Of a stretch of DNA of 64,000 nt, positions 58,833 to 61,938 are shown piece by piece. The DNA comes from a candidate division KSB1 bacterium (GTDB taxonomy: Bacteria > Electryoneota > RPQS01). Each line of letters begins with the position of its first letter. The stretch's first letter is position 1. Under the pieces are notes generated by a model that saw only the letters and a list, made by a program, of their open reading frames with translations, did no database searches and was not told the origin of the DNA. The stretch is from NCBI GenBank assembly GCA_016214895.1, contig JACRMR010000023.1:1-64000 (forward strand). Reading direction: 5' to 3'. The position numbers and the translations under genes were made by a program.

Positions 58833-59075
58833 CTACGCCGCCACCGGATTCACCGCGATCGTCTCTTCGCGCGTCGTCATGTGCAGGAGTCGAATCACCT
58901 TGGGCTTTGACGACTTGTCCTCATAGTAGAGATTCACCGCGTCGCGCACCATCACCTTGAGGTCCTCCCAACTATCACCCTGCGTAAAAATATTCACGCC
59001 GAGCGCACGCGCGTTGTAACCGCCCTCTTCCGCCTCGCGGACTTCGAAGATGATCTCAGTTTGGGATTCTGACAT
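58833..59075 (-). CDS. HicB-like antitoxin
   Basis: An 80-residue partial-RNase-H-fold antitoxin (IIFEVREAEEGGYNARALGV, then IFTQGDSWEDLKVMVRDAV). It is of the short type found with LPRDV-type HicA toxins and lacks a separate DNA-binding tail. The gene is intact, whereas the downstream hicA carries a stop codon, so it is an orphan antitoxin. The order is hicB then hicA. Confidence 0.8.
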   Translation of the reverse strand: MSESQTEIIFEVREAEEGGYNARALGVNIFTQGDSWEDLKVMVRDAVNLYYEDKSSKPKVIRLLHMTTREETIAVNPVAA

Positions 59076-59360: not shown

Positions 59361-59696
59361 TCAAACCGTCGTATAGGAAATGGGAACGCTGGTTCTGGTC
59401 AGGCGAACCGATCTTGATCGCACGGCGCGCTTGTTCTTCGCGGACAATTCAGGCGGTTGGTATTTTGGAGTGGGTTTCTGCTTCAGCGTCCATCCGAGGC
59501 CGAGTATGACCTTCTCCAACGTACCCTTGCGTTCCGTCTCCTTGACAAAAATCTTCAGCGCCTGCTCGAATGACTTCTTGGCCGCCGCTTCCGCGCGTCC
59601 ATACGAGGACAGATCCAGCTCAGGGCAGTACGCGACAAAGTAGTCGCCCTCCTGACTGATCAATACGCGGACATTGATTTTGAATTTCTTTGTCAT
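59361..59696 (-). CDS. HicB family antitoxin
   Basis: A 111-residue HicB: VRVLISQEGDYFVAYCPELD, then LSSYGRAEAAAKKSFEQAL, is the classic pseudo-RNase-H signature. A basic C-terminal tail follows. The ATG at 59696 gives MTKKFKINVRVL; longer readings add unconserved residues. The adjacent hicA is frameshifted, making this a second orphan antitoxin beside 58833-59075. Confidence 0.8.
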   Translation of the reverse strand: MTKKFKINVRVLISQEGDYFVAYCPELDLSSYGRAEAAAKKSFEQALKIFVKETERKGTLEKVILGLGWTLKQKPTPKYQPPELSAKNKRAVRSRSVRLTRTSVPISYTTV

Positions 59697-59768
59697 GCGG
59701 GATTTGCGAGAATTACGATTCAGCGCGACGTCGAAGAGCGCATATCCGTGCGGCACGACGGACCACCC

Positions 59769-59793
59769 GGGCGGGTCACGGACCCGCCCCTAC
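59769..59793 (-). repeat. GTAG-headed REP overlapping a stop codon
   Basis: On the minus strand it reads GTAGGGGCGGGTCCGTGACC then CGCCC, a strong hairpin. TAG of the head is the stop of the DUF35 gene at 59790-60185. The same type occurs at 63125-63169 and 105-127. Confidence 0.65.
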
Positions 59794-60185
59794 TCCGGGA
59801 CGACCTTGTAGCCGTACAGATGCAGGCCTTCGTCGCCGTCGTCCATGAGTTTGCGAAACTCGACGCGGACCTTCATGCCGATCTTGACCTGATCGAGCGG
59901 GCAGTCAGCGAGCTGACAGGTGATGCGGCCGCCGCCGTTGAGTTCGACAATGCAAAGCGCGTAGGGACCGATTTTTTCGAATCCCATCGGCGCGACGCGG
60001 ATGACGGTGTAAGTGAGGATTTCGCCGGTGTACTCGAGCCGGACGGGCTTGAACTTACGATTGCCGTTGCCCGGTTCGACCTGCCGCGCGGGAAAGAACA
60101 CCTTGCCGGTCTTGGCCGACTTGTTCGCCTCGCCGCGATAGCGTTCAGGGATTTCGCGCCAGTAGCGCGCAGTTGAACGGAACAT
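59790..60185 (-). CDS. DUF35 OB-fold protein lacking its zinc ribbon cysteines
   Basis: A 131-residue DUF35-family protein. In archaea this family forms the scaffold that joins acetoacetyl-CoA thiolase to HMG-CoA synthase, and in PhlB-like systems it supports acyltransfer. The OB-fold part is clear (YTGEILTYTVIRVAPMGF; PYALCIVELNGG; KIGMKVRVEF). The N-terminal zinc ribbon normally reads CxxCGxxxFPPRxxCPxC. Here it is SAKTGKVFFPARQVEPGN, so all four Cys are replaced. It follows the thiolase gene by 111 bp, and its stop codon lies in a REP. Confidence 0.85.
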   Translation of the reverse strand: MFRSTARYWREIPERYRGEANKSAKTGKVFFPARQVEPGNGNRKFKPVRLEYTGEILTYTVIRVAPMGFEKIGPYALCIVELNGGGRITCQLADCPLDQVKIGMKVRVEFRKLMDDGDEGLHLYGYKVVPE

Positions 60186-61537: not shown

Positions 61538-61819
61538 TCAGATCCCGGCTTCCGCCGTAGTGGGATCGATAATGGACACCACTTCCGAGATCCGGTCCGC
61601 GGGGAACCCGGCTTCGCGAGCGTGTTCGCGGATAATCTCTTCGCTGGGCGCGAGGTACACGCAGTAGAGCTTATCCCCGGTGATATAGCTCTGCACCCAC
61701 TGGATGCTCGGGCCGAGGATGTTGAGCACGATGCAGGATTTTTGCGCGGCGTTGCGCTTTACTTCAGCATCCCAGTTTCCTGCGCCTGGAACGTTCCGTT
61801 CAATGATGTACTTCGGCAT
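61538..61819 (-). CDS. DUF4242 family protein
   Basis: A 93-residue ferredoxin-like alpha/beta protein of the DUF4242 family (MPKYIIERNVPGAGNW; WVQSYITGDKLYCVYLAPS; IREHAREAGFPADRISEV). Members have an uncharacterised role and are sometimes annotated nickel-binding. The ATG at 61819 follows GGGAGGA. Its position between HMG-CoA synthase and thiolase genes suggests a role tied to that pathway, but this is only inference from context. Confidence 0.8.
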   Translation of the reverse strand: MPKYIIERNVPGAGNWDAEVKRNAAQKSCIVLNILGPSIQWVQSYITGDKLYCVYLAPSEEIIREHAREAGFPADRISEVVSIIDPTTAEAGI

Positions 61820-61938
61820 AATGTCCTCCCTCGAGTTCTGCAATTCCATCGGTCAATGATAGTGGCCCTGCCGCTGGCTCTCGGCCAAACCTCGGTTTCG
61901 GGTTTCGGGTTTCGGCGGTCGGCATTCAGCGCTTCAGA

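Follow-up and report, generated by a model that had tools for sequence, protein, structure and literature searches.

The closest described relatives of the system analysed here are the proteins of the thiolase/HMG-CoA synthase/DUF35 complex of Methanothermococcus thermolithotrophicus (6esq, 6et9). A paper of 2019 stated that every DUF35 protein structurally characterised until then binds zinc at equivalent positions. Sulfolobus Trf (6htj) and SSO2064 (3irb) share the DUF35 fold, a ribbon plus an OB fold, and are both zinc-bound; the matching passages of the SSO2064 paper (PMC2954200) mention no loss of ligands. An outlier is CtShy, the DUF35 protein of the Sal aldolase (9myr), which binds zinc by three Cys and one His, and the shifted zinc packs the ribbon loop on the thiolase-fold partner, as described in passages of a 2025 paper (PMC12329534). 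Outside the family, passages on the unrelated TFE-alpha of Haloferax volcanii (PMC5861453) describe a working protein with a degenerate zinc ribbon, in which one Cys remains and zinc binding is weak. No ligand-free DUF35 protein was recognised from titles and the beginnings of abstracts in a literature search for DUF35, zinc ribbon and cysteine, most subscription papers being outside its scope.

The window is a stretch of 64,000 nucleotides from a genome of the phylum Electryoneota (G000; other genomes are labelled G, loci L, and three families of the phylum f3, f5 and f6). Its DUF35 gene lies beside genes for an archaeal-type HMG-CoA synthase and a PRK06064-type thiolase. Upstream of DUF35 on the minus strand, the order is thiolase, a gene for an SCO4226-like protein, and HMG-CoA synthase, all on the same strand (Table 1). 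In a PDB search, the DUF35 protein, the thiolase and the synthase all had relatives in one solved complex, 6esq. The DUF35 protein was the single match to PF01796 (OB_ChsH2_C) in the window genome, with 70.5 bits against a cut-off of 27.1, and it matched 6esq_E with an E value of 1.1e-24 by phmmer. The SCO4226-like protein probably lies outside the complex; among the loci compared, only the window genome has its gene between those of the synthase and the thiolase. Just downstream of DUF35, two small open reading frames at 59361-59756 and 58833-59075 on the minus strand look by eye like HicB-type antitoxins.

Table 1. Positions of the features in the window and the evidence for each.
Feature	Position	Strand	Evidence
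DUF35 subunit of 131 aa with ribbon and OB fold, ligand Cys all replaced	59790..60185	-	PF01796, 6esq_E, AlphaFold, VIA
Ribbon at residues 19-46, predicted to be metal-free; a hairpin bearing two ex-zinc knuckles	60048..60131	-	6esq_E alignment, pLDDT
Ser23 codon replacing ribbon Cys 1	60117..60119	-	Ser in 8/8 of order, 4 codons
Thr26 codon replacing ribbon Cys 2	60108..60110	-	Thr in 8/8 of order, 3 codons
Glu37 codon replacing ribbon Cys 3	60075..60077	-	Glu in 8/8 of order, 2 codons
Asn40 codon replacing ribbon Cys 4	60066..60068	-	Asn in 8/8 of order, 2 codons
Acetoacetyl-CoA thiolase subunit, 392 aa	60297..61475	-	PRK06064 508 bits (cut-off 420); 6esq_A 2.3e-101
SCO4226-like small protein between synthase and thiolase	61538..61849	-	PF14026 84.8 bits
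Archaeal-type HMG-CoA synthase subunit, 353 aa	61939..63000	-	TIGR00748 523.4 bits (cut-off 353.35); PRK04262 530 bits, above cut-off; 6esq_I 3.1e-141

The window protein resembles the DUF35 of M. thermolithotrophicus in sequence, in predicted fold and in its homologous partners, and differs from it in the ribbon. A preliminary description of this DNA had claimed that all four ribbon cysteines are replaced and that the surrounding residues are preserved, and both claims held. The phmmer alignment with 6esq_E runs without gaps from ribbon Cys 1 to Cys 4 and places S23, T26, E37 and N40 opposite them, while the residues around the lost ligands are retained. The C4 pattern of a zinc ribbon (Cys-x2-Cys ... 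Cys-x2-Cys) is thus replaced by S, T, E and N, and the Pfam scan found no zinc-ribbon family in the protein at E<=1. The Cys residues of the protein are at 78, 90 and 95 and its sole His is at 122. Since neither residue occurs before position 78, no alternative Cys or His can occupy the ribbon site; other Cys aligned in the ribbon, which the preliminary description had named as a refutation, are thereby ruled out. Like CtShy, the protein departs from the C4 site, but it has no ligand set such as the three Cys and one His of CtShy.

The preliminary description had also proposed that the fold may persist without metal, and the predictions agree with this. AlphaFold, run on a 54-row alignment, gave a mean pLDDT of 85.3 for the window protein, with values of 94, 91 and 94 for residues 21-30, 31-40 and 41-50. 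The top fold match of the model was 6esq in both Foldseek (TM 0.73-0.75) and VIA, which aligned 122 residues to 6esq_E with a Z score of 15.7 and an rmsd of 2.8. The protein is thus predicted to keep a ribbon-plus-OB fold like that of 6esq_E, with the ribbon in its place and shape, in a model whose alignment was rich in Cys-bearing rows and may have imposed the fold. For a protein with short knuckles from Ca. Hatepunaea, the pLDDT was also 85.3 and the TM score to 6esq_E was 0.82, with lower confidence in the ribbon (about 84).

The spread of the replacements was read in 39 genomes of the phylum. The DUF35 model matched in 26 of them at 1e-10, giving 24 orthologues readable through the ribbon, one partial gene (G008) and one different paralogue (G009). 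Ribbon cysteines were absent from 22 of the 24 orthologues; one Cys was present in G015 and all four in G016, of family f6. All eight genomes of the window's order, which belong to two families, carry STEN at the four sites. The seven other genomes with identical replacements rule out a sequencing artefact or an isolated copy; the comparison of related genomes that had been proposed as a check on the loss thus upholds it. In family f5 (six genomes) the four sites read DTAN, DTVN or DSTD, with one CTAN. The nine genomes of f3 have T, A or D at site 1, Y at site 3, a deletion of site 4 and shortened knuckles. Identical or comparable replacements therefore extend beyond the window's order, where all eight genomes have them, to two more families of the phylum. 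The DUF35 of G008 belongs to a short mosaic of joined synthase, thiolase and DUF35 pieces (L125, G008:C29), which is probably an assembly fault.

Outside the phylum, the cysteines are mostly kept. The contig scan confirmed 196 hits, of which the best 80 were taken. After removal of 11 phylum copies, 68 of the remaining 69 loci had four Cys; the exception was a KSB1-labelled metagenome-assembled genome with CTNT (L038). A second sample comprised 40 loci, four of them duplicates of loci in the first, drawn from the 44 genomes outside the phylum with a match among 386 searched. All four Cys were found in 32 of these 40, and one or no Cys in six: G088 (CTVN), G200 (CTAF), G366 (the KSB1 copy again), G097 and G238 (both NTAE) and G368 (HDKE). 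These six and the two other exceptions, G278 and G339, all have an HMG-CoA synthase neighbour. In G278 the ribbon is half lost, reading CDCG (L171, G278:C82), and may be an intermediate. In G339 the DUF35 gene (L179, G339:C94, 4562-4966, minus strand) encodes a Cys-rich insertion in knuckle 1 and CCPWC in knuckle 2. Since it nests in a clade of Cys-less rows, this ribbon may be a rebuilt metal site. Thr-Gly at site 2 recurs in the window's order, most of f5, the KSB1 copy, G088, G200 and G097/G238, and may form a turn in place of the knuckle.

One alternative is that the degenerate ribbon still holds zinc or another metal weakly through the oxygen ligands of S, T, E and N, in the manner of Haloferax TFE-alpha, which retains low zinc affinity with a single ribbon Cys in the passages cited above (PMC5861453). 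However, the potential ligand set differs by group (STEN in the window's order; DTAN, DTVN, DSTD or CTAN in f5; the shortened form in f3). Moreover, residues 19-46 of the window protein contain no Cys, His or Asp, and their only acidic residues are Glu19 and Glu37. We consider weak metal binding very unlikely.

The sequences of the order also bear on selection. Over its eight genes STEN is invariant, yet it is written with four different codons for Ser, three for Thr and two each for Glu and Asn. The identity of the residues despite the differing codons indicates that selection maintains the replacements. With the four sites left out, the mean identity of ribbon and OB fold was 0.76 and 0.74 in the window's order, 0.67 and 0.71 in f5, and 0.69 and 0.70 in f3; in 29 Cys-bearing rows, hand-picked from a larger set, the values were 0.57 and 0.58. 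The corresponding ratios of ribbon to OB identity were 1.03, 0.94, 0.99 and 0.99. The synonymous share of codon differences in ribbon and OB fold was 0.67 and 0.59 in the window's order, 0.59 and 0.58 in f3, and 0.53 and 0.59 in f5, where the four sites themselves vary (identity 0.60). All these identities and shares are plain counts taken without a tree. The repeated loss of this site across lineages speaks for relaxed selection, with the ribbon decaying and the subunit turning dispensable, and the lower synonymous share of the ribbon in the HMG-CoA reductase-bearing f5 weakly agrees with such decay. However, in the window's own order the replacements are fixed over synonymous codon changes, the ribbon is conserved like the OB fold, and the synonymous share is higher in the ribbon. 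The counts speak against decay in this order, whereas in f5 they are neutral or lean slightly the other way; relaxed selection as the general explanation is extremely unlikely.

Hence, we consider it probable that the window DUF35, its ribbon having turned metal-free, serves as the clamp in a complex with thiolase and HMG-CoA synthase. Turn-forming residues would substitute for zinc, with a Thr/Ser-Gly turn at knuckle 1 and a Pro-x-Asn turn or a shortened loop at knuckle 2. The subunit would still pack on thiolase and tether it to HMG-CoA synthase, and acetoacetyl-CoA would pass between the two enzymes. A clade that lacks every ligand, keeps the predicted fold and has its replacements under selection in at least one order would offer a natural test of the role of zinc in acyl-CoA complexes. 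That DUF35 is one case of zinc or cysteine being saved throughout the genome is the least probable of the readings considered here. This reading has no support besides DUF35 itself, and in ribosomal protein L32, the only other ribbon compared, the CxxC pairs are kept in 30 of 30 phylum loci read, including that of the window genome (L32 was matched by tblastn in 30 of 36 genomes). Other DUF35 paralogues of the phylum, in G009 and as the second copy in G005, also keep four Cys.

The history of the loss was followed on trees of HMG-CoA synthase and thiolase with DUF35 left out, built three times with 79, 103 and 65 rows. Loci without both partners above the length limits were excluded, so that 79 of 94 loci entered the first tree; for the second, 107 of 134 loci had both partners and 103 remained after four duplicates were dropped. 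The third kept 65 of these 103 rows after long branches and near-copies, including the distant Cys-less L186, L187 and L193, had been removed following a quick tree. The rows of G008 (L028, L125) were excluded, and L171 with its CDCG was scored as neither lost nor kept. In the 79-row tree, the 20 phylum rows with one or no Cys fell on one side of a branch with a support of just 55, and a tree constrained to unite them with the Cys-bearing phylum row L114 fitted at least as well (likelihood 3.65 higher, p-AU 0.552). In the two later trees, these 20 rows grouped with L172, L174 and L179 in a clade of good support, and L114 lay outside. The 103-row tree required at least four changes of Cys state, and well-supported branches enforce three of these. 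The bootstrapped 65-row tree required three, with a 23-row clade of the 20 rows, G088, G200 and the Cys-rich G339 at a support of 99/97. Changes of state on these trees may be losses or regains. Because the partner trees require three or four of them, the cysteines were probably lost more than once. The trees suggest as the simplest history either one old loss in the 23-row clade, after which the ribbon of G339 was elaborated anew, or multiple losses within that clade, together with separate losses in the KSB1 genome and in the distant group of G097, G238 and G368. A recurrent loss across the phylum goes beyond the preliminary description, as does the lack of HMG-CoA reductase in the window genome described below.

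The preliminary description had further suggested that the loss could alter how the protein bridges thiolase and HMG-CoA synthase. This was not supported as stated. The three genes remain near neighbours across the loci long enough to tell, and Cys-bearing and Cys-less DUF35 genes both precede the same methylcrotonyl-CoA carboxylase genes. At one locus beside a Cys-less DUF35 (L032, in G005), the best thiolase match stops after the first 178 residues, as from a frameshift or an assembly error.

Unlike M. thermolithotrophicus, the host of the window is a bacterium without detected HMG-CoA reductase: no match to PF00368 was found in its genome, which is 97.9% complete. IspH, of the MEP route, is present. 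Across the phylum, HMG-CoA reductase was found in seven of the 39 genomes, all of them f5, and IspH in 31, being missing from those seven f5 genomes and G018. In most phylum genomes that carry the complex, HMG-CoA synthase is not accompanied by the reductase. Outside the phylum, 17 of 26 tested complex-bearing genomes, a set that left out G097, G238 and G368, were also without HMG-CoA reductase, and one of the other nine had a weak partial match. Since no reductase was found, mevalonate synthesis is probably not the role of the complex in the window genome, and an HMG-CoA synthase kept without the reductase needs another use for HMG-CoA. In f5, the complex probably serves mevalonate.

A remodelling of the ribbon to alter the function of the complex, for example in favour of HMG-CoA cleavage, would have a parallel in the Sal/Shy aldolase, in which passages of the 2025 paper report that the Cys3His shift moves the ribbon loop onto the thiolase-fold partner and reshapes the active site (PMC12329534). 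However, cysteines were lost in genomes both with and without HMG-CoA reductase, so that the pathway does not explain the loss and was rejected as its cause. In addition, DUF35 is Cys-bearing in 43 of the 46 loci adjoining a carboxylase, from the best 80 of 196. We regard such remodelling as rather improbable, and a metal-free clamp remains the preferred reading of the ribbon.

The carboxylase genes offered a lead to the role of the complex. An acyl-CoA carboxylase beta subunit more than 60% identical to the copy in L035 was present in 46 of 80 loci (the best 80 of 196), often after the three genes, and 39 of these 46 loci, some of them incomplete, also had a crotonase-type hydratase and a biotin carboxylase. 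In the window genome, the carboxylase set lies on another contig (G000:C12). Its beta and alpha subunits had their best PDB matches in 3u9r and 3u9s, which bear the names of the corresponding subunits of methylcrotonyl-CoA carboxylase, and by sequence the set is identified as that enzyme. The adjoining crotonase-family gene, a candidate for methylglutaconyl-CoA hydratase, matched PRK05674 best, with 243 bits below the cut-off of 426, and its best PDB match was 3i47, a general enoyl-CoA hydratase. No HMG-CoA lyase was found in the window genome with NF004283 at 1e-20.

The carboxylase was present in 29 phylum genomes. Of these, 23 had the complex alone, four the lyase alone and none the two together; the remaining two, each about 80% complete, had neither (Fisher p 6e-4). 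The four lyase genomes are two related pairs, one within a genus and one within a family, and thus represent few independent events. Of 63 outside genomes with the carboxylase, 13 had the complex but no lyase, 33 the lyase but no complex, five both and 12 neither (p 0.0014). No exclusion was seen in the 294 of 386 genomes without the carboxylase (complex only 12, lyase only 28, both 0, neither 254; p 0.61). The carboxylase occurred in 41 of 53 complex-bearing genomes compared with 51 of 333 without the complex. These tables use cut-offs of our own choice (carboxylase 1e-150, lyase 1e-40) and their p-values ignore kinship. Fifteen of the 68 DUF35-matching genomes were not scored as having the complex, 14 for want of an HMG-CoA synthase match above 45% identity in the locus and G264 with its locus unread.

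Within the phylum, the exclusion of lyase and complex hints that a textbook enzyme of leucine degradation has possibly been displaced by the synthase complex. We tentatively propose that in this and many related bacteria the complex stands in for HMG-CoA lyase, cleaving HMG-CoA and channelling acetoacetyl-CoA to thiolysis to yield three acetyl-CoA, with a zinc-free clamp in Electryoneota; this is possible, at somewhat less than even probability. HMG-CoA would be broken by reversal of the synthase, and thiolysis within the complex would drain acetoacetyl-CoA. In the known complex, the thiolase step is uphill and is coupled to a downhill synthase step. The complex keeps acetoacetyl-CoA from the solvent, as cited in a passage of the Sal paper (PMC12329534). 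With the two steps coupled and acetoacetyl-CoA not released, the overall reaction should be near reversible. Five genomes have both complex and lyase, 12 carry the complex but lack the carboxylase, and the f5 genomes bear the reductase; all three groups speak against a universal role in place of the lyase. Literature searches found no paper joining HMG-CoA synthase with leucine degradation; on HMG-CoA synthase in these phyla they returned only a review of phylum names, and on alternative routes to isovaleryl-CoA only papers on other subjects by title. The complex may also work in the opposite direction, with isovaleryl-CoA made from acetyl-CoA, as myxobacteria do. In G014 and G019 the lyase gene directly adjoins the carboxylase, which favours breakdown over isovaleryl-CoA synthesis.
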